This document shows positions 9,668 through 41,887 of a DNA stretch of 57,168 nt, in pieces. The DNA is taken from the NCBI RefSeq assembly GCF_030067675.1, contig NZ_JASJEV010000017.1, positions 1 to 57,168 on the forward strand. The letters run 5' to 3'. How positions within the stretch are numbered: position 1 is the first letter of the stretch; the number at the start of each line of letters is the position of its first letter. The stretch comes from Chelatococcus albus (GTDB taxonomy: Bacteria > Pseudomonadota > Alphaproteobacteria > Rhizobiales > Beijerinckiaceae). A model generated the notes under the pieces. It saw only the letters and a list, made by a program, of their open reading frames with translations, searched no databases and was not told the origin of the DNA. The position numbers and the translations under genes are program-made.

Positions 9668-9668
9668 A

Positions 9669-10847: not shown

Positions 10848-11200
10848 CCGCGGCGGGCGTTCAGGGGCCCGATGCGGGGTGAGCAGCAGCGAGCCGCCAG
10901 GCCTTGATCGCGGCGTCTGGGGCAGGCTCACCGGGGTGCGTACTGGCCTGGAGCCGGTCGTGCCGTCGTTCTCCGCGCTCGACCGGCGCCATGAGGCCAC
11001 CCGGGAAGGGGCTGCATCGGACCTGGCGGGCGCGGAGAACCGGCGCCCGCTTCCTTCGCGCATAGCCCGCTCGCCCGGCGGGGCCGGAGCCCGTGCCCCT
11101 GCGACCACGGTCCCGCGCGGGCCTGCGCGCTGCCGCGCTTGTCGCGGGAGAGGCGCGAGCGCAGGATCTCCCCGAGGGGCCGGCTCGGGAGGAGCGTATC
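10848..11200. other. Gene-free gap
   Basis: About 350 bases between the efflux operon and the flavin oxidase. Reading frames in it are GC-driven and show no recognisable protein family. It should contain the terminator of the efflux operon and the promoter of the oxidase, but I could not place either with confidence. A ribosome-binding site GGGAGGAG is present at about 11187-11194. Confidence 0.4.
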
Positions 11201-12640
11201 ATGAACGAGTTGAACCTCACGACTCTCGAAGCAGGAAGGACGACGATCAGTGGCGCGACCCTCGAGGAGCTCGCCGCGGGGCTGCGCGGCAGCGTGTTCG
11301 ACGAGCGCGCGGCCACCTACGACGAGGTGCGGACAATCTGGAATGCCATGATCGACCGCAGGCCCGGGCTTATCCTGCGATGCCTCGGGGCTGCGGACGT
11401 GATCCGTGCCGTGCGGTTCGCGCGGGATAACGGGCTGCTGGTCGCGGTTCGTGGCGGTGGGCACAACATTGCCGGCAACGCGGTTTGCGACGGGGGCCTC
11501 GTGATCGATCTCTCGCTCATGAAGTCCGTGCGCGTCGACGTGGCCGCGCGGCGGGCGTGGGTCGGGCCGGGGGCGACGCTTGCCGATGTCGACAAGGAGA
11601 CGCAGGCGTTCGGGCTGGCGGTCCCGACCGGGATCAATTCGACGACTGGCATCGCCGGACTGGCGCTCGGAGGCGGGTTCGGCTGGATCACGCGAAAGTT
11701 CGGACTGACGATCGACAACCTCCTGTCGGCGGAGGTCGTGACCGCCGACGGTCAGCTCCTGCGCGCAAGCGCGACGGAGAACCCGGACCTCTTCTGGGCG
11801 CTGCGTGGCGGCGGCGGAAACTTCGGCGTGGTCACCGCCTTCGAGTTCAGGCTTCACGAACTCGGCCCGCAGGTCCTGTCAGGGCTCGTCGTGCATCCCT
11901 TCGACGCTGCCGAGGCGGTGCTCAGGGAATACCGTCAGGCGCTCGACGCCGCGCCCGATGAACTGACCTGCTGGGCGGTGCTGCGACGAGCACCGCCCTT
12001 GCCGTTCCTTCCTGCCGACTGGCATGGCAAGGAGGTGCTGGTTCTCGCCATGTGCTACTGCGGCGACGTGGAGGCGGGCCAGGCGGCGACAGCCGGGCTG
12101 CGTGCGATCGGACAGCCGATCGTCGACGTCGTCGGCCCCAATCCCTTCACGGGCTGGCAGCAGGCGTTCGATCCGCTGCTCGCTCCCGGCGCCCGCAACT
12201 ATTGGAAGAGCCACGACTTCACTGAGCTCCCGGACGCGGCGATCGAGGCTTTGACGGCAGCGGTGCGCAATCTTCCGGGACCCGAGTGCGAGATCTTTGT
12301 CGGCCATGTCGGCGGAGCCGCGGGCCGCATCGCGGTCGATGCAACGGCCTTCCCGCAACGAAGCGCGCATTTCGTCATGAACGTCCATGCCCGCTGGCGC
12401 GAGCCGGACATGGACCGGGCCTGTATCGACTGGGCGCGGCGTCTTTTCGAAGCCACGAGGCCCTACGCGGCGGGAACCGCCTACATCAACTTCATGCCCG
12501 CCGACGAGGTCGACCGCGTCGAGACGGCCTACGGCGGCAATTATCTGCGGCTGGCGCAGCTGAAGCGGAAATACGACCCGACGAACCTGTTCCGGATGAA
12601 CCAGAACATTCGCCCGGCGGCCGAGCTGCTGGCGGCATAG
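11201..12640 (+). CDS. FAD-linked oxidase with BBE (berberine-bridge) domain
   Basis: 479-residue flavoprotein of the PCMH/vanillyl-alcohol oxidase superfamily. The FAD-binding N-terminal domain shows RGGGHNIAGNAVCDGGLVID; its histidine (about residue 88) is where homologues carry covalent FAD. It also has TGIAGLALGGGFGW and ALRGGGGNFGVVTAFEF. The C-terminal BBE motif is seen in YGGNYLRLAQLKRKYDPTN-type sequence near the end. ATG 11201 has GGGAGGAG at an ideal distance. Members oxidise sugars, aromatic alcohols or amines; the substrate here is unknown. It stands alone, with gaps of several hundred bases on both sides. Confidence 0.88.
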   Translation: MNELNLTTLEAGRTTISGATLEELAAGLRGSVFDERAATYDEVRTIWNAMIDRRPGLILRCLGAADVIRAVRFARDNGLLVAVRGGGHNIAGNAVCDGGLVIDLSLMKSVRVDVAARRAWVGPGATLADVDKETQAFGLAVPTGINSTTGIAGLALGGGFGWITRKFGLTIDNLLSAEVVTADGQLLRASATENPDLFWALRGGGGNFGVVTAFEFRLHELGPQVLSGLVVHPFDAAEAVLREYRQALDAAPDELTCWAVLRRAPPLPFLPADWHGKEVLVLAMCYCGDVEAGQAATAGLRAIGQPIVDVVGPNPFTGWQQAFDPLLAPGARNYWKSHDFTELPDAAIEALTAAVRNLPGPECEIFVGHVGGAAGRIAVDATAFPQRSAHFVMNVHARWREPDMDRACIDWARRLFEATRPYAAGTAYINFMPADEVDRVETAYGGNYLRLAQLKRKYDPTNLFRMNQNIRPAAELLAA

Positions 12641-13263
12641 AACCGGCGACGATGGGCTCGACCGACGCTGCCCCTCTCCGCGCCGGTCGAGCCTCGCTGG
12701 CAACGGGTGCTGTGCGGCCGGCGGCCACGCCGACGATGTCGGCGGGTGTGCCACGGCGGGGCTGCCCCATGTCGAAATCGAGGCCTCGGCACGCTTTGTC
12801 TTGAAAATTCGAGAACAGTTACCGAAACGGAAAGCAGATCTCCGTCGAATATCCATGACGTGATCTCGTCATGGTCTGCGTAAACGTGCCAGACAACCGC
12901 GAAAAGCGGACAGGGGAATGTCCATGGCCAGGCAGCAATGCGACGGGCAGTGGCAGCGCGCGCCCTCAAGACTGTCGGCGGCACGCCTGCCGTCTTCGCG
13001 GCAACGACGCGACAGATGCAACTCACCGCAACTGGCCAGGAGGCCCGTCCGGTCCGCTTGCGGTTCGCGCCTGCTTCATTCCGATAGCCCCCGCCCCTTC
13101 CCGGCGGCGAGGCACGCCCAGATGCCTAGCCCAGGAGCCTGAACCGCGCCGGGTTTGCCGGAGGCAGTTTCGTTTGAGTCACGCCGCCCTTATACGGCAT
13201 TGAAGGACCATCTCACGCGAGAGCCCCGCTCTGGAGGTGCTCTGACCGGGCCGTCGAGCGAGG
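12641..13263. other. Gene-free gap containing an 8-bp inverted repeat
   Basis: About 620 bases with no recognisable gene. One ordered element stands out: CCATGACG (12853-12860), six bases, then its exact complement CGTCATGG (12867-12874), in a locally less GC-rich stretch (about 12785-12875). No T-run follows, so it is more likely an operator or a chance palindrome than a terminator. No repeat or phage/IS feature was seen. Confidence 0.4.
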
Positions 13264-27909: not shown

Positions 27910-30065
27910 TCAGAGCGGCACGCGCAGGCTCAGGACGATCGACCGGGGCGCTCCGGGGCTGATCTGCGAGTTGGTCGAGGCTGCTTCGAAATATCTGGCG
28001 TTGAACAGGTTGTTGACGGAGAGGTTCGCCTCGAACCGCGGGTGCTTGTAATAGAGCCGCGCGTCCGTCCTCACATAGCCGGGCAGCCGCACCGTATCGT
28101 CCGCCGTGGCGTAGCGCGCGCCGACATAGGTCAGGCCGCCGCCGATGCCGAACCCGGCACCGATCTCGTAGTTTGTCCAGACCTGCGCCGCGTGGCGCGG
28201 CACGTTGGCTGGGCGCGCGCCGACAGGGAAGTTGTTCGACTTCGTGATCTCAGCGTCGATGTAGGTGTAGGCGGCCCGCACATCCCAGCCGTCCAGCGGC
28301 TTGGCGACGAGATCCACCTCGACGCCCTGATGCCGCTGCTCGCCGACCGCGAGGCGGACATTGGGGCGGGCGGGATCGTTCGTTGCGACGTTGGCCTTGT
28401 CGACGCGGTAGAGGGCGAGGCTGCCCTGCAGGCGGCCGTCGAACCAGTCCGTCTTGGCGCCCACCTCGATGAGGTCGGTGCGCTCGGGCCTGAGGTCGGC
28501 GAGGTTCTGCGAGAAGAAGAAGCTGCTACCCGTCGGCTGATAGCTGCGGCTCGCCGTGCCGTAGAAGGAGAGCTGCGGCAGCGGTCGGTAGACGAGCCCG
28601 AGGCGGGGACTGAACGTGTCGTCCGTCCGCTGCAGCACCTGACCGTTGAGGCGGCTGAGCTGGTGCTGATCGAAGCGGTCGACACGGGCGCTGGCGAGGA
28701 GGTGCCACTCCTCCGAGAACTTGATCTGGTCCTGCAGATAGGCACCGACGGCATGCTCGTGAACGCCGCGTCGATGGCGGCCGTCGTGAAGGTCGGGCGC
28801 GGCGCCGTGTGGACAGGGTTGAAGATGTCGATCGACGGCGCGGCCGCGTTCTTGCTCAGGAAATCGCGCTCCTGGCGGCCATATTCGAGGCCGGCCAGCA
28901 CCACGTGCTCGGCACCGAGGAAGCCGAAGCGGTGGGTCGACTCCAATTGGTCGAAGTAGTTGCGCTGGGGTACGGAGAAGAAATTGTAGCTGCGGCTGAG
29001 CGCCCGACCATTCGCCGCGAGTGTGCCGTTGCGCGTGCCGAGCTGCTCGATGTCGGCATCGCTCACCCGGAAGACGTTGCGCAGCGTCCAGTCCGTCGTC
29101 GGCGAATAGGTCACGGCCACGGTGCCGTTGACGACATCGGCGCGCTGGTAGTCGAACGGCTCACCGAGGAAGGTGCTGCGCGGCACACGGACGGGCCGCC
29201 CCTGGAAGGAGGGGATGCCCCGGTCGGGCGTACGTTCGTCGTGCAGGTACTCGATCTGGCCGAGCACCTCGAGATCGGCCGAGGGCCGGTAGGCAAGGGA
29301 CGGGGCGATGAAGTGGCGCTGCGAGTCGACGAAGTCGCGGAAGCTGTCGGCATCCTCGATGGCGCCGTCGAGGCGATAGAAGAACGGCGTGTCGCCGATG
29401 CGCCCGCCGAAGTCCCCTTCCAGGCGCTTGTAGCCGAAGCTGCCGCCCGACAGCGTGAGCGAGCGCGCGGGATCGCTCGGCGGCTTGCGCGTGATGAGGT
29501 TGAGGAGGCCGCCCGCCGAGCCGCGCCCGTAGAGCGCGGCCGAGGGTCCCTTGAGCACCTCGATGCGCTCGATATTGGCGAGGTCCCGGTACTGCTGGAA
29601 GGCGTCGTCGCGCACGCCGTCCTTGAACACGTCCGTGAGCGCCGGGAAGCCGCGGATGGTGAAATCATCGCGCGCGCCCTCGCCCTGCAGGGTGAAGACG
29701 CCGCTCGCGAGCGTGGCGACGTCCTTCAACCGCTGCGGATTCCGTTCCTCGATCACCTCCCGCGGGATCGCCTGGATGGCCTGCGGGGTCTCGATGAGCG
29801 GCGTCGGCGTCTTGAGCGCGGCCGAGAAGCCGGGGGGCAGGGGGCCGAGGAAGCCGCCACCAATGGTCAGCCCCGTCACGTCGATCGCCGGCAGTTCGAT
29901 GGCGCCCGCGGCCGTGCGCGAGACGCTGTCCTCGGCCGCAGCCGGCTGCATCGCTGCCAGGGCGAGCGCGGCGCCGAGCGCCGTCGTCGCGAGAAAGCCG
30001 GCCGTCAAGGCGCGGGCCCTCCCGCATGTCATGCAGGATCGGGACTGGTGATCGTCACTCATCAT
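27910..30065 (-). pseudogene. TonB-dependent siderophore receptor, frameshifted
   Basis: Outer-membrane receptor of about 718 residues if repaired. Signal peptide about 1-45; plug domain with TPQAIQAIPREVIEERNPQR and RIEVLKGPSAALYGRGSAGG; beta-barrel through to the C-terminal PRSIVLSLRVPL. The frame breaks at 28759-28760: upstream reads FTTAAIDAAFT, and one missing base restores EHAVGAYLQDQIKFSEEWHL in the frame that continues cleanly to 27910. The ATG at 30065 has AGGAG about 8 bases upstream. It resembles ferric siderophore (FhuE/FpvA-like) receptors. Either inactivated or a single-base sequencing error. No siderophore synthesis gene is nearby. Confidence 0.85.
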
Positions 30066-30951
30066 TGGCTCCTGTCGGCTGGGTGCAAGGCCCGCCCACG
30101 CGTGGATACTGGAGGGATGGAGGCCGCCTTCTGCGAGGCGGCGGTCGCGCAATCCGCACAATCGCGGACGCTTCCCGCGAGGCGCTCGTTCGTCGACGGA
30201 TCGAGGTTGGAAGGGGAGTTGGCGGCGCGCGGGCTGACGCGGCCATGATGGTGTCGGGATCCGGTCCGCGCATGCAGGCATGCGCCGGGGAGCCGCCCCT
30301 GCGGAACGGCTATCCGCTTTCGCCTCTCGTGCCAGCGGCCTTCGCCGCGACCGCTGTGGCGCTGATGCATGGGATATTGGTGAAGCCCGGCGGTGGCTGG
30401 CACATGTCGCTGACGAGGGATTTCGATCACAACCCGCGCGGGTGCTAGGTTGAGTCAGCCGCCGAAGCAAGCTGCCGCCGGTCTTTTTCTGTCCAATGTT
30501 CGTTGCAATGCGAAAGTGTTGTATTCGTTCAACATAATGAAATGAGAATAATTTAAATTTCTGATGCCGTTCGGTCCGATGATGGCATGCGCGGCCGCGG
30601 GCTTTGCTGGCACCTCTTTCTCTGCCGCCCCCGAGGCGCGGCCGGGTCGAGGAGGACAGGCCGTGCCGAGATGACGGGGGGACGCTTCTCGCCTGAACCT
30701 CATGCTGGCACCCCGGAAGCCGCTTCAGCGGCTGTCCGGGGCCTAGAACCGATTACGGTGGAGCATGAGCGCAGCGGGCCGCCGCGCCTTGCGATCACCC
30801 GCATCGGTTCTGGAACTGCCGCCGCGGTGGCCCCTTGGGTCGCATCAGGCCGTGGTCGCTCGGGACGATGGTGGTGTTTCGGCGCGAGCCTCGGCCGGTG
30901 ACGGGGCGGCCCGGGAACGAGGACATATCCGAAAGCTGCGCCGCGAGCGCC
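30066..30951. other. Long gene-free region with an AT-rich promoter-like island
   Basis: Nearly 900 bases without a credible gene; the reading frames are arginine/proline/histidine-rich and mutually inconsistent. At about 30480-30565 there is a sharp AT-rich island including ATGAGAATAATTTAAAT (30542-30558), which resembles a Fur/Irr-type iron box in part. It could be the iron-regulated promoter of the receptor 480 bases away on the minus strand, with a long leader, but this is uncertain. No riboswitch that I could fold was found. Confidence 0.4.
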
Positions 30952-31266
30952 TCACTCGGCGATGGTGCGGAATGCGAGCGCGTCGAGGATCTTCACCTTC
31001 TCGCCCTCCGAGGCTGCGGCATAGGCCGCGGCCTGTTCGAGGAGCTTCATCGTCGTCTCGCGGGCGGCGTGGGCGACCTCCGCCGGGAAGGGCTCGCCGT
31101 AGTAGCGGTCGATGAGGCTGTCGAGAGCCGTGACGAGGAGCTGCCGCAGCGCGGCATCCGGCGCGCCCGAGCGCGCATCCTTGGCGCACATCTCGCGCAG
31201 GGAGGAATAGGTTCGGATGCCCTCGTTCTGCTGACGGAACCAGTCCAGCAATTCGCTCGTCGTCAT
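30952..31266 (-). CDS. Hypothetical 104-residue protein, last gene of the orotate-like operon
   Basis: Small soluble, helix-rich protein starting MTTSELLDWFRQQNEG. It contains LLVTALDSLIDRYYGEPFPA and the alanine-rich MKLLEQAAAYAAASEGEKV. I do not recognise a family. The ATG at 31266 has GAGGGAG close upstream, a good ribosome-binding site, and it follows pyrE by 73 bases on the same strand, so it is probably co-transcribed. Its restriction to this kind of operon would be informative about a special role. Confidence 0.65.
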   Translation of the reverse strand: MTTSELLDWFRQQNEGIRTYSSLREMCAKDARSGAPDAALRQLLVTALDSLIDRYYGEPFPAEVAHAARETTMKLLEQAAAYAAASEGEKVKILDALAFRTIAE

Positions 31267-31339
31267 CGCTCCCTCGCGAAGAATGGCGGCCGCGCCGCCC
31301 TGGGATGGGGCCGACGTTCCCGCCCGGCCGCGGCCGGTC

Positions 31340-32011
31340 TCAGAAGTCGGCCTTGCCACCGTGCCTGGCCGACCACTCGGCCGGGGCATGGAGAAACCTC
31401 TCGACCTCGTCGAGCGTGCTCGCCGCGAAGTAGCTGCGCGAGCGCGCCTCCTCGAGCACGTCCCACCAGGTGGCGAGCGCGTGCATCTTGATGCCGTGCT
31501 CGGCGAGCGTGGCCGTGCTCTCCTTGAAGATGCCGTAGTGGAACACGACGAAGGTGTGCGCCACCTCGGCGCCGGCGCGCCGCAGCGCCTCGGCGAAGGC
31601 GAGCTTGGAGCGCCCGTCCGTCGTCAGGTCCTCGACGAGCAGCACCCGCGCGCCCTCCCGGATGTCGCCCTCGATCTGCGCGTTGCGGCCGAAGCCCTTG
31701 GCCTTCTTGCGCACGTAGAGCATGGGCAGCATCAGCCGGTCCGCGAGCCAAGCCGCGAAGGGAATGCCGGCCGTCTCGCCGCCCGCCACGGCGTCGATCG
31801 ATTCGGTGCCGATCTCGGCGAGGATCTGCTCGGCGGCGAAGTCCATGAGCCGCCGGCGCAGGCGCGGGAAGGAGATGAGCTTGCGGCAGTCGACATAGAC
31901 GGGGCTCGCCCAGCCCGAGGTGAAGATGAAGGGCTTTTCGGCGTTGAACTGGATGGCCGAGACCTCCAGCATCATGCGCGCCGTCTGGGAAGCGATGAAT
32001 TTCCTGTCCAT
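31340..32011 (-). CDS. pyrE: Orotate phosphoribosyltransferase
   Basis: 223-residue OPRTase converting orotate and PRPP into OMP. Family marks are [55 protein letters not shown] and the PRPP loop [14 protein letters not shown]. The loop differs from the VITAGT form of enteric PyrE but, as I recall, is the usual alphaproteobacterial form. It follows pyrC by 29 bases. In this operon it would send imported or recycled orotate into UMP synthesis. Confidence 0.94.
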
Positions 32012-32040
32012 GTCTCTCGGCCTCGGTCTCGCGTTGTCTC

Positions 32041-33111
32041 TCAGGCGGCGGCCGAAGCGCCGGCAGCGGTCTCGATCGTCCAAGAGATCTCTTCGCCGCC
32101 GCGGAACACGTGCACCGCGTCGCCCGACGGGAGATGGACGTCCTCGGCCACGAACCGCGACCGCTCGACGAGCGTAACGGTGCCCTCGTTCGGGGGCAGG
32201 CCGTAATGGCGCGGACCGTTCAGGCTTGCGAAGGCTTCGAGCTTGTCGAGAGCGCCCTCCTCCTTAAAAACCTGCGCATAGCACGCGAGCGCTACCGGCG
32301 CCACGAAGAGCCCGGCGCATCCACAGGCGGCTTCCTTGGCCCGGCGCGTGTGCGGTGCCGTGTCCGTGCCGAGAAAGAAGCGCGGGTTGCCGGAGGTCGC
32401 AGCCCGGCGCAGGGCGAGGCGGTGCTTCTCGCGCTTGGCGACAGGCAGGCAGTAATAGTGCGGGCGGATGCCGCCGGCGAAGATGGCGTTGCGGTTGAAG
32501 ATCATGTGGTGCGGCGTGATGGTGGCGCCGACGCCTTCGCGTGCCTCCGTCACATAGGCCACGCCCTCCTCGGTGGTGACGTGCTCGAGCGTGACCTTGA
32601 GGCCGGGATAGCGCCTGACGAGTGGATCGAGGACGCGCTCGATGAAGACCGCCTCGCGGTCAAAGATGTCGACCGCGGCGTCGGTCACCTCTCCGTGCAC
32701 GAGAAGCGGCACGCCCGCCCTTTCCATGGCCGCAAGCACGCGGTCGACCTTGGCGAGGTCGGTGACGCCGAAGTGCGAATTCGTGGTCGCATGCTGGGGG
32801 TAGAGCTTGACGGCGGTGACGAGGCCGCGCCGGTGCCCCTCCAGGACGTCGGCAGGGTCGGTGTCGTCCGTCAGGTAGAGCGTCATCAGCGGCGTGAAGT
32901 CGCTGCCCGCAGGCAGCGCCGCCAGGATGCGGGCGCGATAGCCTTCCGCAGCGGCGCTCGTCGTCACCGGCGGCACGAGGTTCGGCATGATGATGGCGCG
33001 GGCGAACTGCTCGGCGGTGTAGGGCAGGACAGCCGCGAGCATCGCATCGTCGCGCAGGTGCACGTGCCAGTCGTCCGGGCGGCGGATGGTGATCGTCTCG
33101 GCCATGGTCAT
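32041..33111 (-). CDS. pyrC: Dihydroorotase
   Basis: 356-residue zinc amidohydrolase of the E. coli PyrC type, interconverting N-carbamoyl-L-aspartate and dihydroorotate. Metal and substrate residues are visible in DDWHVHLRD (HxH), AVKLYP (carboxylated lysine), [14 protein letters not shown] and GTDTAPH. The chosen ATG 33111 overlaps the upstream stop (ATGA); an ATG six bases later (33105) has better spacing to AGGGG and is possible. In a catabolic operon it would run in the ring-opening direction, giving carbamoyl-aspartate. Confidence 0.94.
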
Positions 33112-34388
33112 GCCCCTGCGGTCAAGGTCTCGTACAGAAGGTCGACGCCGGCGAGGAAATCGTCGATCTCCATCGCCTCGTCCGGGTTGTGCGACCCGTT
33201 CTCGTTTCGCACGAAAACCATCGCCGCCGGAATGCCTGCGTTGGCAAAAACGGCGGCATCATGGCCGGCCCCGCTCGCGATCGTCTCGGCGGGCAGGCCG
33301 AGGCGCCGGGAGGCGGCGAGAAGCCGCCCGACGAGCCGCTCGTCCATGCGCGCGGGCGCTGCGTCCTGCCTCGTGTCGAAGACGAAGGTGACGCCGCGCT
33401 CGCGGGCGATATTGGCGCATTCCGTCCTGAGCAGCACGTCGAAGGCTTCGAGCGTCTCGTGGCTCTGGCTGCGGATCTCGAAGCTGAAGGCGACCTCGCC
33501 CGGGATGCGGGTGGTGGCGTGCTCGGCGGGGTCCGTGCCGACGACGCCGACGGTGACGACGAGGTCGAGGCCGCGTTCGAGCAGCACACGCCAATGCTCG
33601 TCGAGCCGCGAGACCAGCTCGGCGAGGGCGAAGACCGGGTCGCTGCGCAGCCAGCGCGGCACGGCGCCGGAATGCCCCGCCCGCCCATGGCACACGAGGC
33701 GCTGATAGCGGATGTTGCCGCGGATGCCGGTGACGACCGCCGTCGGCCAGCCGCGCGCCACCATCACCGGGCCCTGCTCGATGTGCAGCTCCAGGAAGCC
33801 GGCGATGTTGCGCTTGTCGATCAGCGGCCTGCCCTCGCGCACGCCCTCGACGTCGATGCCGACGCTCGCGAGGGCCTCGCCGAGCGTGCGCGCGCCGCCG
33901 CGCTCCTTCAGTCCGAGATCGGCCGCTCGCAGGGCGCCAAGGAGCGCGCTCGAGCCGATATAGGGCTTGCCAAACCAGGGCGATTCCTCGCCGCGCAGGC
34001 CGATGACGCGCACGGGGCAGGGTGGCGTGACGCCCTCGCTGCGCATGCGCGCGAGGCAGATGAGGCCGGCGAGCACGCCGGCCGCACCGTCGTAGTTGCC
34101 GCCGCGGGGCACGGAATCGAGATGGGAACCGACGAGCATGTAGGGCCCGGGGGCCTCGTCCGGCAGCGAGAGGACCAGATTGTCGCCGGCGTCGCGGGCG
34201 ACGGCGAGGCCCTCCGCTTCCGCAAGGCGGGCCACCGCCGCCATCGCCGCGGCCTCGCCCTCGGCGAAGGCCTGGCGCGTGATGCCGACGCCGTCGAAGC
34301 CGAGGTGGCGCAGGTCATTGAAGGCCTGGGCGGCGAAAGCGTGCCAGTCGCGCGTGTTGCGCCGCAGGGAGGCTACGGGCGCGTTCAC
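33108..34388 (-). CDS. M20-family N-carbamoyl-amino-acid hydrolase (allantoate amidohydrolase/ureidopropionase type)
   Basis: 426-residue zinc-dependent amidase of the AllC/HyuC/beta-ureidopropionase group. Metal-binding and catalytic segments are [36 protein letters not shown] and the C-terminal [18 protein letters not shown] with NGSHNPDE. The dimerisation-domain motif GRAGHSG is present. The family hydrolyses N-carbamoyl compounds to amino acid, CO2 and ammonia. Its position between PyrDB and PyrC, with overlaps on both sides (ATGA each), makes N-carbamoyl-L-aspartate (ureidosuccinate) the most likely substrate; this is inferred. A role on allantoate, hydantoin products or ureidopropionate is possible in principle. 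Confidence 0.88.
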
Positions 34389-35323
34389 GACGCGGCCTCC
34401 GCCACCTGCCCGTCAAAGCCCGCGTCGGCGACGGCGCCGACGAGATTGTTGACGTCGGCAATGCCGCGCCGTCGGCAGAAGGCGGCGAGACCGTCGATCA
34501 CGCCGATCATGGCCGTCGGCCGCACGAAGGTCGTGGTGCCGACCTGCACGGCGCTCGCCCCGGCGAGCAGATATTCCACGGCGTCCTCGGCGGTGGCGAT
34601 GCCGCCGCAGCCGATGATGGGAATGCCGAGCCTGGCGGCGCACTGATAGACCATGCGCAGCGCGATGGGCTTGATCGCCGGCCCCGAGAGGCCGCCGAGC
34701 ACGTTGCCGAGCTTCGGCCGGAAGGTGTCGGTGTCGATGCGCATGGCGAGGATCGTGTTGGACACGACAACCGCGTCCGCTCCGCCGGTCTCGGCGGCGC
34801 GCGCCACAGCGACGATATCGCCGGTATTGGGCGTGAGCTTGACCCACAGGGGCAGCGACGTCGCCCGCCGCAGAGCCTCGGTGACCTGGGCGGTCAGCCG
34901 CGGCTCCATGGCGAAGGACTTTCCGTCCTCCTCGATATTGGGGCAGGAGATATTGGCCTCGATGCCGGCGACGCCGGGGATCGTCAGCGCCCGCGCCATG
35001 GCCGCGAAACCGTCCACCGTGGGCGCGGAGATGCTGACCACGAGCGGCGGCGAGAAGCGCGCGTAGAACGGCACGACGTGCTCGATGAAATGGGCGAGGC
35101 CCTTGCTCGGGATACCGATCGAATTGAGGAGCCCTTCCGCGCTCTCGCAGACGCGCGGCACCGGATTGCCGGCGCGGAAGTCCTGCGTGATCGTCTTGGT
35201 CACGAAGGCGCCGAGGCGGTTGAGGTCGAAGACCCTGTCGAGCCCCTCGGCGAAGGTGCCGGAGGCGGGCATGACGGGATTGGCGAGGGCAAGCCCGCCG
35301 ACGTCGACTGCGAGCTTCACCAT
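34385..35323 (-). CDS. pyrD: Dihydroorotate dehydrogenase, class 1B catalytic subunit
   Basis: 312-residue FMN enzyme (PyrDB type). It has MPASGTFAEG at the N-terminus, GLLNSIGIPSKG, the active-site cysteine in NISCPNIEE, the lysine in LWVKLTPNTGD, and the FMN-phosphate site IPIIGCGGIATAEDAVEYLLAGA and GTTTFVRP. Class 1B enzymes pair with PyrK to use NAD(H), in contrast to the quinone-linked membrane class 2 PyrD usual in proteobacteria. The start overlaps the pyrK end by 7 bp. With NADH it can work reductively, as in classic orotate-fermenting clostridia. Confidence 0.93.
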   Translation of the reverse strand: MVKLAVDVGGLALANPVMPASGTFAEGLDRVFDLNRLGAFVTKTITQDFRAGNPVPRVCESAEGLLNSIGIPSKGLAHFIEHVVPFYARFSPPLVVSISAPTVDGFAAMARALTIPGVAGIEANISCPNIEEDGKSFAMEPRLTAQVTEALRRATSLPLWVKLTPNTGDIVAVARAAETGGADAVVVSNTILAMRIDTDTFRPKLGNVLGGLSGPAIKPIALRMVYQCAARLGIPIIGCGGIATAEDAVEYLLAGASAVQVGTTTFVRPTAMIGVIDGLAAFCRRRGIADVNNLVGAVADAGFDGQVAEAAS

Positions 35324-36159
35324 GACGTCGCCTCCTTCAGGTCGAAGACCGGCCCGTCCCAGCACACGCGCCGGTCGACGAGGCGCCCGTCGACCTCGAA
35401 CTTGCGCACGCAGCAGAAGCACATGCCGAGGCCGCAGGCCATCTGCTGTTCGAGGGCCACCTGGCCGGCGATGCCGCGGCGGGCCGCGACATCCTTGGCG
35501 AGGCGGAAGAGGCGGTTCGACCCGCAGGTGAAGACAGCATCCGCACGGCCCGCCTCGGCGAGGCCGTCAAGAAGCGCGGCGACCCGCGCCGGTTCACTCG
35601 ATCCGTCGCTGTCGAGAACCGGCACGACCTGCGCGCCGATGGCGGCGAAGCGCTCCGCCGACATGACGAGATCGGCCCGCCGCGCGCTCAGAATCGCCGT
35701 GACGGCGATGCCCAGCGCGTGCGCGGCCTCCGCGAGCGGCGCGAGCGTGGCGAGGCCGACGCCGCGACCGAGCACGACGATGGTCCGCCAGGCGGGATCG
35801 AGGCGAAAGCCGACGCCCAGCGGCCCGAGGATGTTGAGCTCGTCGCCGGACGCGAGCGCCGTGAGCGCCCGCGTGCCGAGGCCGGTGACCTTGTAGAGGA
35901 ATTCGACCGTACCCGTCGCCGGGTCGGCGCGGTATGTGCTCATCGGCCGGCGCAGGTAGGGTTTGTCCTCCCCATTCGCGGGGCAGAGCAGGTGGAAGAA
36001 CTGGCCGGGCTCGGCGAGCGTCGCCGGCGCGCCGGCGCGAAGCACGAGATGCCGGTACTCGGCATTGACGGCGACGTGGCTCACGACCTCCGTCGGGCAA
36101 TCGGAAACGGCGGGGGCGTTCGCGGCCCCGGCGGGCCGCGTAGCATGCGCTTCGAGCAT
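35317..36159 (-). CDS. pyrK: Dihydroorotate dehydrogenase electron-transfer subunit PyrK
   Basis: 280-residue FAD and 2Fe-2S protein that links PyrDB to NAD(H). FAD site: YLRRPMSTYRA with RRP(M)S. NAD site: LGPLGVGFRL and VVLGRGVGLATLAPLAEAA. The 2Fe-2S cysteines are in CGLGMCFCC (C-x4-C-x2-C) and the following RRVCWDGPVF. It lies 10 bases after dctM and overlaps pyrD, placing transporter and enzymes on one transcript. The electron-transfer pair next to a transporter supports redox interconversion of an imported orotate/dihydroorotate. Confidence 0.92.
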   Translation of the reverse strand: MLEAHATRPAGAANAPAVSDCPTEVVSHVAVNAEYRHLVLRAGAPATLAEPGQFFHLLCPANGEDKPYLRRPMSTYRADPATGTVEFLYKVTGLGTRALTALASGDELNILGPLGVGFRLDPAWRTIVVLGRGVGLATLAPLAEAAHALGIAVTAILSARRADLVMSAERFAAIGAQVVPVLDSDGSSEPARVAALLDGLAEAGRADAVFTCGSNRLFRLAKDVAARRGIAGQVALEQQMACGLGMCFCCVRKFEVDGRLVDRRVCWDGPVFDLKEATSW

Positions 36160-36169
36160 GGCTTGCTCC

Positions 36170-37450
36170 TCAGTAGCCGAGCAGTCGCGGCAGCGCCGTC
36201 GAGATGGCCGGCACGTAGCTGATGACCATCAGCACGGCGATGTTCGTCAGGATGAAGGGCCAGATGCCGGCGATCACCGTCTCCACCGGGCGGTTCAGCG
36301 CCGAGGATGTGACGAAGAGGTCGAGCCCGAAGGGCGGCGTGATCATGCCGATGCAGATGTTGAGGCAGACGAGCACGCCGAAGTGGATCGGGTCGATGCC
36401 GAGCGCGGTCGCCACCGGAAAAAGCGCCGGCACCAGCACGACCATGATCGAGTTCGGGTCGATGAACATGCCGGCGATGAAGAAGACGATGTTCACCGCG
36501 AGCAGGAAGACGACCCAGTTGACGTGCAGGTCCGTCAGGAGGCCGAGCAGCATGTCCGGCAGGCGCGCGAGCGTGACGAAATAGGAGAGGAGCGAGCCCA
36601 TCGCGAGCAGGATGAAGACCGCGACGATGGTGAGTGCGCTCTGCTCCGCCACGCGCATGACGTCCGCCAGCCCGAGCTTGCGGTAGATGCCGACCTCGAC
36701 CAGGAGCGCATAGGCGACCGCGACCGCCGCCGCCTCCGTGGCGGTGAAGAGGCCCGAGTAGATGCCGCCAAGGATGATGAGGGGCATGCCCAGCGCAAGC
36801 GTCGCCGCCTTCGTCGCCTCCCACCGCTCGGCGGCGGTGGCGCGCGGCAGCGGCGCGATGTTCTCGCGGGCGGTGACGAGGCGCACGTGCACGAGGAAGC
36901 CGATGCCGAGCACGATGCCGACGACGAGCCCGCTCGCGAACAGCGCCGCGACGGAGGTGCCCGTGAGCCAGGCGTAGACGAGCAGCGTGATGCTCGGCGG
37001 GATGAGCAGCGCGCATTCGGCGCTCGACGCGATGAGGCCGAGGGAAAAGCGTTCAGGATAGCCGTTGCGCACCAGCTCGGGATGCAGGAAACGGCCGAGC
37101 GCCGCCACCGTCGCCGGCGCGGAGCCGCAGACGGAGCCGAAGGCCATGCAGGAGACGACGGTGGTCTGGCCGAGGCCGCCGGTGCGATGGCCCATGTTGC
37201 GCTTGACGAGGGTCATCAGGCGCTCGGCGATGCTGCCGCTTGCCATGAGGTCGGCGGCGAAGATGAAGAAGGGGATGGCGAGCAGCGTCGAGACATTGAC
37301 GCCGCCCACGAGCTTCTGCGCAATCACCGCCTCGGGGATGTTCGGGAAATCGGTGAAGCGGGCGAGGACGCTCGGCACGCCCATGACGAGCAGCATCTCG
37401 AAGCCGAGCGCCAGCATCACGGCAGCGAGGAGGCACAAGAGAATGAGCAT
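36170..37450 (-). CDS. dctM: TRAP transporter large permease DctM
   Basis: 426-residue integral membrane protein of the DctM family with about 12 hydrophobic segments. Family blocks are AIPFFIFAADLMASGSIAERL, MAFGSVCGSAPATVAALG, LIASSAECALLIPPSI and CIGMITPPFGLDLFVTSS. It drives sodium- or proton-coupled uptake together with DctQ and the periplasmic DctP. Nine bases separate it from dctQ. Substrate not readable from sequence; the co-transcribed pyrimidine enzymes suggest a carboxylated pyrimidine or ureido acid, consistent with TRAP preference for organic acids. Confidence 0.94.
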   Translation of the reverse strand: MLILLCLLAAVMLALGFEMLLVMGVPSVLARFTDFPNIPEAVIAQKLVGGVNVSTLLAIPFFIFAADLMASGSIAERLMTLVKRNMGHRTGGLGQTTVVSCMAFGSVCGSAPATVAALGRFLHPELVRNGYPERFSLGLIASSAECALLIPPSITLLVYAWLTGTSVAALFASGLVVGIVLGIGFLVHVRLVTARENIAPLPRATAAERWEATKAATLALGMPLIILGGIYSGLFTATEAAAVAVAYALLVEVGIYRKLGLADVMRVAEQSALTIVAVFILLAMGSLLSYFVTLARLPDMLLGLLTDLHVNWVVFLLAVNIVFFIAGMFIDPNSIMVVLVPALFPVATALGIDPIHFGVLVCLNICIGMITPPFGLDLFVTSSALNRPVETVIAGIWPFILTNIAVLMVISYVPAISTALPRLLGY

Positions 37451-37459
37451 GGCCGTGTC

Positions 37460-37969
37460 TCAATGGTCCTGGCCGCGGTCGGCGAACGCGAAGCGGTTCG
37501 CCGGGCCGACGATTTCAAGGACATAGCGCAGGGTCAGCAGGGCGAAGCCTGCGGGCAGGGCGGCGTAGAGCCAGATCATGGAGACGTCGAGCGTCGGGCT
37601 CGTCTGGCCCATGCCACCGACGAAGCGCGCGAAGTCGTAGCCGAGCTTGGTGATATAGGCCGAGAAGGCGACGCCGGTGAGATTGATGACGAGGCCGAGC
37701 GCCCGCCGCGGCCCCTCCGGCAGCCTGTCGAAGAGCGCGGTCATGGCGATCTGCCGACCCTTCTCGAGGGTGATGCCGAGGCCGAGGAAGACGAGCCAGG
37801 CGAGAGCGAAGAGCGCGAGTTCCTCCATCCAGACGAGGTGCAGGGACCAGGACGGGACGATGAGGCGCACGAGCACGTTCACGACATAGCCGGCCGACAT
37901 GAGGATGAGGAGGAGGCCGATGACGTGTCGTTCCAGCGTGCGCAGCACGTCGAGCGGGCGGCGGGACAT
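37460..37969 (-). CDS. dctQ: TRAP transporter small permease DctQ
   Basis: 169-residue membrane protein with four helices, matching DctQ: WMEELALFALAWLVFLGLGI (the conserved E-E-x-A-R-region variant) and KGRQIAMTALFDRLP. I chose ATG 37969 (MSRRPLD) because GGAGG lies about 10 bases upstream; an ATG seven codons earlier lacks a site. Partner of DctM in the same operon, 33 bases after dctP. Confidence 0.92.
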   Translation of the reverse strand: MSRRPLDVLRTLERHVIGLLLILMSAGYVVNVLVRLIVPSWSLHLVWMEELALFALAWLVFLGLGITLEKGRQIAMTALFDRLPEGPRRALGLVINLTGVAFSAYITKLGYDFARFVGGMGQTSPTLDVSMIWLYAALPAGFALLTLRYVLEIVGPANRFAFADRGQDH

Positions 37970-38002
37970 GGGCAGCGGCCTCCGTGGCAAGGTCGGACGG
38001 GA

Positions 38003-39034
38003 TCAGTTTGCGAGGCCGAGGCGCTTCATCTCGGCGTCGTAGATGTCGAGCACCTTGATGCCCTCAGCGCCGGCGCGCTCGATGTAGGCCTGCTTGGCAA
38101 GCGGATACATGGCGCTGCGCCACTTGGCGCGCTCGTCGTCGGGCAGGGTGCGGACGGTCATGCCGCCCGCCTTCATCTTCTCGAGCGCCTCGGTCTGCAC
38201 CGCCTCCTTCATCGCCTCGACCTGCGGACGGACTTCGTCGAAGGCCTTGGCGATGACGTCGCGGTGCTGGGCAGGCAGGGCGTTCCACCAGGCGGGGTTG
38301 AAGAGGACGATGTCCTCCATGGCACCGTGGTTGGACACCACGAGCTCCTTCTGCACCTCGTTGTACTTCATGGTGGCAATGGTATCGAGCGGGTTCTCCT
38401 GGCCGTCGATCACGCCCGTCTGCAGGGCCGTGTAGAGCTCGCCGAAGGGAATGGAGACGGCCGCCGCGCCAACGCCGGCGAACTGCTGGATCAGGATCTT
38501 CGAATCCATGACGCGGAACTTCTGGCCCATGAATGCCGACACGCTGGTGAGCGGCCTGTTCGACGTCATGCTCTTGCGCCCGTTCGGCCAGATGGTGAGC
38601 GCCACGAGGCCGCGCTTGGCGAAGGAATCGAGCACCGTCTTGCCGAAGGGACCGGATCGCAGCTCCTGCGACTTGGCACGGTCCTCCGGCAGGAGGAAGG
38701 GCAGGTCGAGCACGGACACGACCGGGTTGAAGCCGCCGAGGAAGGCGGCCGGCATCACCGTGCCCTCCGCCGAGCCGAGCTGCGTGCCCTCCACCATCTG
38801 GCGCGCGTTGCCGAGCTGGGAGGCCGGGAAGAGCTGGAACTCGACCTCGCCGCCGGTCCGCTCCTTGACGAGCGCCGCGACCTTCTCGAGGCCCTTGTGG
38901 CGCGGCTGCGAGGCGGCTTCCAGATGGCCGATCTTGGCGACGTACTTCGCCTTCGGCGCCTGCTGCGCCTGGCCGGGCAGTGCCCCGGCCATGACGAGCG
39001 CGGCGGCGATGACGATCCCCCTGCGCGAGAACAT
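38003..39034 (-). CDS. dctP: TRAP transporter periplasmic binding protein DctP
   Basis: 343-residue solute receptor. Signal peptide about 1-25 (VIAAALVMAGALPGQAQ). The mature protein has the DctP fold marks GGEVEFQLFPASQLGNARQM, KFRVMDSKILIQQFAGVGA, PFGELYTALQTGVIDGQENP and TMKYNEVQKELVVSNHG. TRAP receptors bind carboxylates through an arginine in the FRVM-type strand, present here. ATG 39034 has GGAAGGAG seven bases upstream. First gene of the long operon; a candidate operator lies just upstream. Confidence 0.94.
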   Translation of the reverse strand: MFSRRGIVIAAALVMAGALPGQAQQAPKAKYVAKIGHLEAASQPRHKGLEKVAALVKERTGGEVEFQLFPASQLGNARQMVEGTQLGSAEGTVMPAAFLGGFNPVVSVLDLPFLLPEDRAKSQELRSGPFGKTVLDSFAKRGLVALTIWPNGRKSMTSNRPLTSVSAFMGQKFRVMDSKILIQQFAGVGAAAVSIPFGELYTALQTGVIDGQENPLDTIATMKYNEVQKELVVSNHGAMEDIVLFNPAWWNALPAQHRDVIAKAFDEVRPQVEAMKEAVQTEALEKMKAGGMTVRTLPDDERAKWRSAMYPLAKQAYIERAGAEGIKVLDIYDAEMKRLGLAN

Positions 39035-39076
39035 CCCTTGCTCCTTCCGTGCGGTGGTTGAGAAAAGCGTATCCAC

Positions 39077-39096
39077 TTTTTGAGACATGTCTAATT
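39077..39096 (-). promoter_or_regulatory. Candidate operator in the dctP promoter
   Basis: Plus-strand sequence TTTTTGAGACATGT (39077-39090) shares the pattern TTTnnTGAGAC(A/T)TGT with an element before the XRE gene (40218-40232). It includes the perfect palindrome AGACATGTCT (39083-39092), followed by an A/T run. The shared motif ahead of both the operon and its likely regulator suggests one DNA-binding protein acts at both. Not matched to a known consensus. Confidence 0.5.
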
Positions 39097-39100
39097 TTTT

Positions 39101-40021
39101 TTACGGAGCCTCGCGCAAGGCCCCGTCGCCCGTCGTCTGCAGGAGCCGCATGAGGCGCCTCGCCCCGTCGGCGCCCTTGCGCGCACGCTGCCAGAGCGTC
39201 CCGATCAGACCTTCAAAGAGATGCACGGCTTCGGGCGTCTCGGTGACCATGGCGACGCCGTTGCGGATGTTGGGGTGGTCGGCGAAGCGGAAGGGGCTCA
39301 TCGCCACGAAGGTGCGGCCCTTCTGCCGGAAGATCTGGAAGGTCTGCTGCGGCAGGGTCTCCTCGACGAGGCCGATCTGGATACCCATGGGCTCCTCGCG
39401 CATCATGTCGGCGAGGCGCTTCACCTCGCGGCGCGCCACGGCGCGCCGCTCGGCCCACACCTCGGGCGCGAGGTCGAAGCGCCCGATGACGCCGTCGCGC
39501 AAGAGCCGTTCGAGGTCCTGCAGGCCGACGATGCTGACGATGAGCGGCTTGCGGCGGCCCGCATGGCCGCGCCGCTCCTGCAGGATGCGGATGAGTTCCT
39601 CGACCTGTCGCGCAGCTGCGCCGTCCCCGGCGTCGGTGGGGGTCGATTCCCGGATCGCCTCCGCCACCGCCCGGGCATAGTCGTCGGAGGAGAGGAGGTA
39701 GGAGAAGGGCGAGAAATGCGCCAGGACCTGCTCGGCCTCCTCCTCGAGCTGGCGCATGCGCTCGAAGTAGGCCACGGCATTGTCGTAGTACTCGACGCTG
39801 ACGCCGAGCAGCGAGGCGACCGAGACGTCCAGCAGATCGGCGATGCGCTGGATGGTCTCGATCTTCACGACCTCGCCCTTCTCCAGCCGGTAGATCGCTG
39901 CACGCGACAGGCCGAGCCGGTCGGCGATGTGCTCCGCCGTGAGGCCGCGCCCCAGGCGGTAGGCCCTGAGCCTGCGTCCGATCTCCAGGAAGCGCGTCTC
40001 GTTGCCGTCCATCGGCGCCAT
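39101..40021 (-). CDS. XRE-family transcriptional regulator of the TRAP/pyrimidine operon
   Basis: 306-residue protein with an N-terminal Cro/XRE HTH (about 10-65: RRLRAYRLGRGLTAEHIADR then LSRAAIYRLEKGEVVKIETI) and a long C-terminal domain with no family I can name. That domain (about 75-300) includes SPFSYLLSSDDYARAV, KPLIVSIVGLQDLERLL and a mid-protein IGLVEETLPQQTFQIF, possibly ligand binding. ATG 40021 has GGGAGAGG upstream. It is co-directional with and 66 bases upstream of dctP, with a shared motif before each, so it is the probable local regulator. The effector could be orotate or a related acid (inference). Confidence 0.85.
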   Translation of the reverse strand: MAPMDGNETRFLEIGRRLRAYRLGRGLTAEHIADRLGLSRAAIYRLEKGEVVKIETIQRIADLLDVSVASLLGVSVEYYDNAVAYFERMRQLEEEAEQVLAHFSPFSYLLSSDDYARAVAEAIRESTPTDAGDGAAARQVEELIRILQERRGHAGRRKPLIVSIVGLQDLERLLRDGVIGRFDLAPEVWAERRAVARREVKRLADMMREEPMGIQIGLVEETLPQQTFQIFRQKGRTFVAMSPFRFADHPNIRNGVAMVTETPEAVHLFEGLIGTLWQRARKGADGARRLMRLLQTTGDGALREAP

Positions 40022-40459
40022 CAGCCCTCTCCCGGCAGCGCGGCGATGGACCGCCCCGCGCGGCTCTCGGCCTCGGCGCGGGGGAGGCCGCCAGGGCGGC
40101 AGGGAGGGAGATCGTCGCAAGGAGGCATGAGAGTCCGCGCCGATGGTGGCCGGAAACGAACCGCGCTCCCGCTGCGAGGCCGTGGCCGTGCTTCCGGGAG
40201 TGATCCGCCCCGTATCGTTTCGTGAGACTTGTTGAAAAAATTAGATGGGCGCGTGCGATGAAGTCAATGTGCCCTTCTGCTGAAATGCGGGGCTGCACTG
40301 CCCACGGGGCGGGCAGGCGCGGTGGGCCATGGCCGCCTCGCCGCCGAGCCGGGATTCGTGGTAATTTTGCACAGAACGTCCGCAGCCCGGGTGCGCCGCG
40401 CCGCGATCGCCGGCGAGCCTCCGGCACGGCGAGCCGCGACCTTCGCCCGGGGGTGGCCG
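40022..40459. promoter_or_regulatory. Divergent promoter region between XRE regulator and glutamine synthetase
   Basis: Gene-free region of 438 bases serving both directions. The XRE-side element TTTCGTGAGACTTGT (40218-40232) matches the dctP-promoter element. Next to it is GAAAAAATTAG (40234-40244), giving a local AT-rich promoter-like patch that also resembles the other site. I found no good sigma-54 (-24/-12) or NtrC site for the synthetase gene. Confidence 0.5.
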
Positions 40460-41887
40460 ATGGCGTACAGCTGCAAGACCCCAGCCGACGTTCTCCGCGT
40501 CGTCGCCGACGACCAGATCGAGATGATCGACCTGCGCTTCACCGATCTCCCCGGCCTTTGGCAGCACTTCTCCGTCCCGCCCCGCGCCCTCGATGCCGAG
40601 AGCTTCTCTGCTGGCATCGGCTTCGACGGCTCGTCCATCCGCGGCTTCCAGGAGATCCAGGAAAGCGACATGCTGGTGGTGCCGGATCCGGAGACCGCCT
40701 TCCTCGATCCCTTCGCGGAGGCGCGGACCCTGGTGCTCATCTGCGACATCCGGGACCCGGTTGCCGCGAGCCCGTACAGCCGCGACGTCCGCTACGTCGC
40801 CCGCAAGGCGGAGACCTATCTCGCGGGCACGGGGATCGGCGACACCGCCTATCTCGGCCCCGAGCTGGAGCACTTCGTCTTTGACGGCGTGCGCTATGAC
40901 CAGGGCACGAACTACGGCTTCTACGAGATCGCCGCGCGGGAAGCGAACTGGGATGCGCGGCAGTCGGAGGGGAACGGGCCGGGGCACAAGCTGCGCGCCA
41001 AGGAAGGCTATTTCCCGACGCCGCCGGCCGATGCCCTCAGCGACGCCCGGGCCAGCATGGCGCGCATCCTCGAGGAGATCGGCATCGCCGTCGAGGCGCA
41101 TCACCACGAGGTCGCGGCCGGCGGGCAGGGCGAGATCGACATGCGCTTCACGACACTCACGCGCATGGCCGACAACGTGATGATCTACAAGCACGTGGTG
41201 AAGAACGAGGCGCGCCGGCGCGGCATGACCGCGACCTTCATGCCGAAGCCGCTCTTCGGCGACAACGGCTCGGGCATGCACGTGCACCAGAGCCTCTGGC
41301 AGGACGGCCGGCCGCTCTTCGCCGGCGACGGCTACGCCGGTTCGAGCGAGCTCATGCGCCATTATATTGGCGGGCTCCTCGTGCACGCGCCGGCGCTGCT
41401 CGCCATCTGCGCTCCCACCGTGAATTCCTACCGGCGGTTGGTCCCGGGCTTCGAGGCGCCGGTCAACCTCGGCTATTCGCAGCGCAATCGCTCGGCGGCC
41501 TGTCGCATTCCCGTCTATTCGCCCGACCCGAGGGCCAAGCGCGTCGAGTTCCGTTGCCCGGATCCCGCCTGCAACCCCTATCTCGCCTTTGCGGCCATGC
41601 TGATGGCCGGGCTCGACGGCATTCGCCGGCGTCTCGACCCCGGCGAGCCCATCGACGAGAACCTCTACGAGCTCTCGCCGGAGAAGCGCGCCGCCATCCC
41701 CTCGACGCCTGCCTCGCTCGAAGCCGCGCTCGACGCGCTCGAGGCCGACCACGCCTTCCTCCTCGAAGGCGGCGTCTTCACGCCCGACGTCATCGAGACC
41801 TATCTCGCCTACAAGCGCGCGCGGGAGATCGACGAGATCCGGCTGCGGCCCCATCCCTACGAATTCGTGCTCTATTACGACGTGTGA
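40460..41887 (+). CDS. glnA: Type I glutamine synthetase
   Basis: 475-residue GSI, making glutamine from glutamate, ammonia and ATP. Landmarks: GIGFDGSSIRGFQEIQESDM, the metal site GPELEHFVFDG, HHHEVAAGGQGEIDMRF, FMPKPLFGDNGSGMHVHQSL, and the ATP loop region SQRNRSAACRIPV. The NLYELSPEK segment keeps the tyrosine that is adenylylated in enteric GlnA. The length equals canonical GlnA, but its location away from glnB suggests a second copy. It is divergent from the XRE regulator and next to ammonia-releasing enzymes, so it may assimilate that ammonia. ATG 40460 has a GGGGG tract upstream. Confidence 0.92.
   Translation: MAYSCKTPADVLRVVADDQIEMIDLRFTDLPGLWQHFSVPPRALDAESFSAGIGFDGSSIRGFQEIQESDMLVVPDPETAFLDPFAEARTLVLICDIRDPVAASPYSRDVRYVARKAETYLAGTGIGDTAYLGPELEHFVFDGVRYDQGTNYGFYEIAAREANWDARQSEGNGPGHKLRAKEGYFPTPPADALSDARASMARILEEIGIAVEAHHHEVAAGGQGEIDMRFTTLTRMADNVMIYKHVVKNEARRRGMTATFMPKPLFGDNGSGMHVHQSLWQDGRPLFAGDGYAGSSELMRHYIGGLLVHAPALLAICAPTVNSYRRLVPGFEAPVNLGYSQRNRSAACRIPVYSPDPRAKRVEFRCPDPACNPYLAFAAMLMAGLDGIRRRLDPGEPIDENLYELSPEKRAAIPSTPASLEAALDALEADHAFLLEGGVFTPDVIETYLAYKRAREIDEIRLRPHPYEFVLYYDV

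Follow-up and report, generated by a model that had tools for sequence, protein, structure and literature searches.

Why would an alphaproteobacterium keep genes for the middle of the pyrimidine pathway next to genes for an importer and for a hydrolase of the M20 family? We considered this question for Chelatococcus albus (genome of 4,005,401 bases, 99.87% complete), in which ten genes lie on the minus strand between 40021 and 30952 of contig C8 (NZ_JASJEV010000017.1); this contig, taken at its full 57,168 nucleotides, is the window that we analysed. In order, the genes are a regulator of the XRE family, dctP, dctQ, and dctM of a tripartite ATP-independent periplasmic (TRAP) transporter, pyrK, pyrD (class 1B), the M20 gene, pyrC, pyrE, and orf104. 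Every gene of this set had been named by a first-pass annotation made from the letters alone, and open reading frames and matches to Pfam or NCBIfam profiles bear it out. Import and use of orotate by the operon are very likely. It also appears likely, with somewhat less assurance, that the operon combines orotate uptake with reductive breakdown via carbamoyl-aspartate. Related gene sets in other genomes are called cassettes below.

Orotate is a pyrimidine precursor that occurs in milk, for example, and a route for its breakdown was studied biochemically long ago. In Clostridium (Zymobacterium) oroticum, orotate is fermented reductively: it is converted to dihydroorotate, then to ureidosuccinate, and then to aspartate, CO2, and ammonia. 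The steps that we propose are identical, but C. oroticum is an anaerobic Gram-positive, whereas the genes here belong to a cassette of Proteobacteria that also includes an importer of the TRAP type or of the major facilitator superfamily (MFS), a regulator, PyrE, and orf104. In the parts of the open-access literature covered by our search (subscription papers mostly lay outside it), we recognised no paper that ascribes orotate breakdown to this set of genes and found no gene-level paper on the clostridial fermentation. The first-pass annotation had likewise known of no proteobacterial system of this make-up. The chemistry is thus known, while the gene system is apparently undescribed. If our reading is right, it would supply the genes, the importer, and the regulator for an orotate breakdown route that is widespread and mobile in Proteobacteria.

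Proposed uptake and reductive breakdown of orotate

The substrate of the transporter is indicated by DctP (38003..39088, minus strand like the other nine genes), the TRAP solute-binding protein. Its closest solved homologue is the TRAP binding protein of Maridesulfovibrio salexigens (PDB 4NN3), with 195 of 330 aligned residues identical (59%); in a phmmer search, 4NN3 had E = 7e-129 and the next PDB entry was far weaker (2e-50). In the excerpt available to us, PMC11668362 reports 4NN3 with bound orotic acid and describes a Lys that points away from the ligand, at a position occupied by Arg in the other structures compared; orotic acid also appears among the TRAP ligands listed in a review (PMC5812351, in excerpt). 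The window's DctP shares this Lys, and the Lys, the carboxylate-binding Arg, and the Asn of 4NN3 are kept in all 20 aligned cassette DctPs, the window's included. Close relatives of DctP (E ≤ 1e-90) are rare: among 385 genomes of the class, only the window's genome and one other (G015) encode one, and both carry the cassette. Although 4NN3 is known here as a binding protein alone, without its operon, these likenesses support orotate as the probable imported substrate, as the first-pass annotation had supposed. DctP, DctQ (the small permease, 37460..37990, PF04290), and DctM (the large permease, 36170..37450), each of which matches its Pfam family, would together import it.

The first catabolic step would be carried out by PyrK-PyrDB. 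PyrK (35317..36159), the electron-transfer subunit that carries flavin adenine dinucleotide and a 2Fe-2S cluster, has the iron-sulfur domain of dihydroorotate dehydrogenase B (PF10418), the cysteine motif CGLGMCFCC...C, and matches to PyrK proteins in PDB, and it scores under the cut-offs of the NCBIfam PyrK equivalogs. PyrD (34385..35323, taking ATG 35323 as the start) is above the cut-off for class 1 dihydroorotate dehydrogenases (NF005574, 349 vs. 269 bits). Both it and all 88 of the 88 cassette PyrDs contain the SCPN motif, whose Cys we take to be the catalytic residue. A class 1 PyrD with SCPN and an adjoining PyrK with the 2Fe-2S cysteines place the pair in class 1B. In the direction that we propose, this enzyme would use NADH to reduce orotate to dihydroorotate. 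The genome encodes a class 2 PyrD elsewhere, which answers a question that the first-pass annotation had raised, and a catabolic role would explain why an NAD-linked PyrD is kept alongside a quinone-linked one.

The reductive uracil pathway (PreTA/PydABC) is similar in that a ring is reduced and opened and the carbamoyl group is removed, but it uses other enzymes. Those are encoded on another contig (C36:139256-148698): PreA, which is over its cut-off, a dihydropyrimidinase, and an M20 protein that is 31% identical to the window's. The window's PyrD reaches 149.6 bits against the PreA equivalog's cut-off of 335. We therefore rejected this pathway as the identity of the operon. PMC4016543 compares the dihydroorotate dehydrogenase and dihydropyrimidine dehydrogenase families, and the portion of it available to us describes no such system.

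PyrC (32041..33111), a dimeric dihydroorotase (430 bits vs. a cut-off of 293), would then open dihydroorotate to N-carbamoyl-L-aspartate, and the M20 protein (33108..34388) would cleave this to aspartate, CO2, and ammonia. The M20 protein is above the cut-off of the hydantoinase/carbamoylase family (TIGR01879, 256 vs. 204 bits) and has the same fold. Among the 25 of 26 matching families that were listed, every allantoate equivalog model and ErtE have cut-offs that it does not reach. ErtE, an N-carbamoyl-L-glutamate amidohydrolase, represents the nearest named substrate type in NCBIfam, and its substrate is just one carbon longer; however, the M20 protein is far under the ErtE cut-off (NF058540, 267 vs. 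520 bits). Three arginines (Arg132, Arg223, and Arg294) are present in all 83 cassette M20 proteins with scores of 500 bits or more, and not in any of the 4 paralogues from this genome; Arg245 is present in 81 of the 83. (We rejected Arg394 as a cassette-specific residue, as it is also found in 3n5f and in 2 of the 4 paralogues.) From the gene context and the three cassette-invariant arginines, we infer that the M20 protein is an N-carbamoyl-L-aspartate amidohydrolase.

The only dimeric PyrC and PyrE found in the genome

The operon would not be purely catabolic. PyrE (31340..32083 with a TTG start, or from ATG 32011) is well above the cut-off for orotate phosphoribosyltransferase (NF001729, 385 vs. 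245 bits), and it could instead route orotate to uridine monophosphate (UMP) by way of orotidine monophosphate (OMP). A search of the genome with PF00156 found nine other places, which correspond to eight genes. Seven of these match other families in NCBIfam (Hpt, Prs, Xgpt, Apt, PurF, Upp, and ComF/GntX, the last under the cut-offs), and the eighth (L009) has no NCBIfam match at E ≤ 1e-25. We rejected a second PyrE on this basis. Similarly, a TIGR00856 search of the genome for a second dimeric PyrC gave one match, the operon's own copy.

The genome does encode PyrB, on contig C11 (C11:649135-651341), and PyrB adjoins a PyrC-like protein that is over the dihydroorotase cut-off of NF006558. This protein contains the sequence DMRAFVGEPG, with RAF at what we take to be the position of the HxH metal motif of active dihydroorotases, so it seems to be a dihydroorotase-like protein that lacks the motif. 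Pseudomonads have an inactive PyrC', which it resembles.

Because the only dimeric PyrC and the only PyrE that we detected are in the operon, the operon very likely serves UMP synthesis as well, rather than merely adding catabolism to a pathway that is already complete. The first-pass annotation had held that its proposal would fail if the genome lacked any other pyrC, pyrD, or pyrE. That is the situation for PyrC and PyrE, and it is not the situation for PyrD, given the class 2 enzyme. Could this then be an ordinary operon for pyrimidine biosynthesis, with incidental neighbors? The sole pyrC and pyrE, and the RAF sequence in the PyrB-linked homologue, would fit. On the other hand, a class 2 PyrD is already encoded, and the transporter, PyrK-PyrDB, and M20 genes recur together across three classes of Proteobacteria and on plasmids. 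Moreover, as the first-pass annotation had noted, the operon contains no pyrB or carAB (carAB was not sought across the rest of the genome), whereas a de novo operon would be expected to contain them and to have no importer or carbamoylase. We consider an ordinary biosynthetic operon to be very improbable.

Instead, an orotate cassette would have taken in pyrC and pyrE from the cell's own pathway. This capture is the least expected part of our proposal, and it presents a regulatory puzzle, as PyrC and PyrE would be common to synthesis and breakdown. In a tree of 96 PyrE sequences, the window's PyrE is among ordinary alphaproteobacterial PyrEs. A second branch, with 34 sequences, contains the cassette PyrEs of Bosea, Roseomonas, Bradyrhizobium, Pigmentiphaga, and others, although its 4 Pigmentiphaga-type sequences may have been joined falsely to the remaining 30. 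Both kinds are found together in loci of Bosea and Telmatospirillum, and a Bosea-like genome (G433) has two PyrEs. Three other genomes with M20 cassettes (G015, G104, and G373), and likewise two congeners (G400 and G439), have a single detected PyrE, which lies in the cassette; the search can miss distant PyrEs, as 2 of 10 genomes, and 31 of 60 genomes of the family, gave no PyrE at all.

Distribution and mobility of the cassette

Two congeners, C. composti and C. sambhunathii, have the same ten-gene set (loci L066 and L067), with PyrKs that are 79% and 76% identical to the window's, respectively. The recurrence of the set in related loci indicates that it is more than chance. More broadly, we identified 342 loci with a relative of the window's PyrK and surveyed the best 80, using hidden Markov models based on the sequences of the window and of as many as eight plasmid cassettes. 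Because the loci closest by PyrK were kept, this census leans towards close relatives. The 80 loci contain pyrD (79), M20 (76), pyrE (58), XRE (49), orf104 (46), MFS (44), pyrC (43), and TRAP (17) genes, and 60 of them have MFS or TRAP genes. The first-pass annotation had proposed a search for such neighborhoods, and the set of transporter, PyrK, PyrDB, and M20 proved to be conserved across related loci. Cassettes were found in Alpha-, Beta-, and Gammaproteobacteria, plasmids included.

These counts bear on whether the operon might instead be for orotate salvage alone, with TRAP import and conversion to UMP by PyrE, with PyrK-PyrDB and PyrC as a biosynthetic, oxygen-independent back-up to the class 2 PyrD, and with the M20 enzyme acting on an unrelated carbamoyl amino acid. 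This would suit the sole copies of PyrE and dimeric PyrC and the frequency of pyrE in cassettes; pyrF is seen once. However, M20 is more constant than either pyrE or pyrC, and plasmid cassettes of Pseudomonas putida and Klebsiella have M20 and pyrC genes without an annotated pyrE. We regard salvage alone as unlikely, and continue to prefer uptake with reductive breakdown.

Several observations weigh against uptake with breakdown. Of the 80 census loci, 31 have no detected XRE gene, 20 have neither type of transporter, and 34 lack orf104 at our threshold. M20 is below threshold in 4 loci: one has a divergent M20 (L140, 241 bits), one has a fragment (L109, 44 bits), and two have none (L120 and L126); for L109 and L126, the sequence stops about 1.2 kb or less downstream of pyrK. 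The arginines of the M20 proteins could be common to the clade by descent, and so they do not prove a substrate. An M20 enzyme that is made along with the only PyrC and PyrE would drain a biosynthetic intermediate unless its activity or expression were controlled. Finally, PyrK-PyrDB pairs with 51-59% identity lack M20 in 5 of the 8 neighborhoods examined, so orotate is not necessarily the substrate of this branch wherever it occurs.

These neighborhoods come from a search of the 385 genomes of the class, in which PyrK was found at E ≤ 1e-10 in 22 genomes and strongly (E < 1e-80) at 12 places in 11 genomes. Outside the window, 3 of the 8 strong places examined have M20 (L195, L196, and L200) and 5 do not (L197, L198, L199, L201, and L202); at the remaining three (in G382, G378, and G210), there was no M20 within the short flanks. 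A sister set of PyrK-PyrDB pairs thus appears to work without M20. (PyrK-PyrDB without a neighboring M20 gene was also seen at L060, as at L198, L199, L201, and L202.) One plasmid pair sits among genes for a Rieske dioxygenase, an enzyme of the xanthine dehydrogenase family, an asparaginase-like protein, and cupins, which suggests that this pair is used on another ring compound. Since the branch is used elsewhere, the window's operon might import dihydroorotate, N-carbamoyl-aspartate, or another ring acid, with PyrDB working oxidatively; given a DctP of the 4NN3 type and the adjacent PyrC and PyrE, we find this extremely improbable. Orotate remains our preferred substrate.

The cassette is accessory and is found on plasmids of several genera. 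A tblastn search with PyrK identified 94 plasmid records. We compared neighborhoods by their annotation, which one further record lacks. Cassettes of the TRAP type are on plasmids of Nitratireductor, Paracoccus, and Pacificitalea, and those of the MFS type are on plasmids of Pseudomonas putida, Variovorax, and Klebsiella. (A Tsx-like outer-membrane channel that we guessed at in Pseudomonas cassettes had no Pfam match at E ≤ 0.001, and we dropped it.) In plasmid cassettes of Roseomonas and Agrobacterium, neither transporter is directly beside pyrK; in Agrobacterium CFBP7129, an MFS gene is about 3 kb from pyrK, and pyrF is present as well. This pyrF (OMP decarboxylase; L203, 3653-4510), the one such gene seen beside a cassette, is transcribed divergently from pyrK and hints that the cassette has a UMP arm.

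The Klebsiella cassette, as in the complete MFS-type copy on the K. pneumoniae plasmid CP120874.1 (L064, 8320-15557), is present at 99-100% identity in 55 plasmid records, 53 of which contain at least 80% of it. In 49 of these 53, the cassette adjoins lacYZ (counted as one place that holds at least 80% of the cassette and lacYZ, with some insertions). The copies are nearly identical, probably as the result of a single recent event. A megablast search, at its sensitivity, found the cassette in none of 5,426 E. coli genomes. For nine of the 53 records, the source is milk or mastitis, a count that has no background rate for comparison. Cow milk has been measured to contain 32-36 mg of orotic acid per litre (PMC8614319, in excerpt), and the position beside lac genes suggests the use of a second milk nutrient. 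A word search of the main text of a study of lac plasmids in mastitis Klebsiella (PMC12724306) found no mention of orotate, dihydroorotate, pyrimidine, or pyrC.

orf104, the regulator, and neighboring genes

orf104 (30952..31266) encodes a 104-amino-acid, all-helical protein from an unnamed, cassette-linked family, to which our analysis draws attention. Its predicted model has five helices, with a mean predicted local distance difference test score (pLDDT) of 90.4, and we found no credible relatives in Pfam, among PDB sequences, or among PDB folds. A profile built from other cassettes found the window's orf104 at E = 5e-8, with one unrelated protein in its seed; once cleaned, the profile matched 54 open reading frames in the 89 loci scanned. 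In the Agrobacterium tumefaciens plasmids pAt1 and pAtCFBP7129a, an orf104 domain (E = 1e-21) is C-terminal to the M20 domain within a single frame of 552 amino acids. As these two proteins are 93% identical, they represent at least one fusion event. Together, the fusion and the linkage to the cassette make the M20 enzyme a probable partner for orf104.

Not all members of the family belong to a cassette: 2 of the 4 clear orf104 matches in a survey of the class are outside PyrK cassettes. At one locus without a PyrK cassette (L193, around 7421-13054), an orf104 relative is beside an amidohydrolase and an ABC transporter of the NMT1 type.

A fuller scenario would start from a mobile and modular orotate cassette that has reached three classes of Proteobacteria and sits beside a lac operon on Klebsiella plasmids. 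In several Alphaproteobacteria, this cassette would have taken over the cell's only PyrC and PyrE, leaving both the synthesis and the breakdown of pyrimidines to a single operon, and orf104 would be a new subunit that partners the carbamoyl-aspartate hydrolase and keeps it in check, so that no futile cycle arises. We offer this combination tentatively, as a possibility that we would not bet on.

The XRE-family gene (39101..40021, about 306 amino acids with ATG at 40021; its N-terminus matches HTH_31/HTH_3) is on the same strand as dctP and 12 nt upstream, so it is probably the first gene of the operon. Its product is likely an orotate-responsive regulator. Gaps from XRE to pyrK are 9-12 nt; pyrK-pyrD, pyrD-M20, and M20-pyrC overlap; and pyrE and orf104 are separated by 73 nt. 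The start codons of pyrD and pyrE are uncertain, and pyrC and pyrE either overlap or, if pyrE starts at ATG 32011, are about 29 nt apart.

glnA (40460..41887, plus strand) is divergent from the XRE gene and about 440 bp away. The first-pass annotation had included it in the system, but tblastn did not find it in the 20.8-kb loci of the two congeners, nor in L068, L070, or L072, so we do not consider it a member. Just downstream of the operon (27910-30470, minus strand), open reading frames in two frames resemble, by eye, a TonB-dependent siderophore receptor that is possibly frame-shifted.

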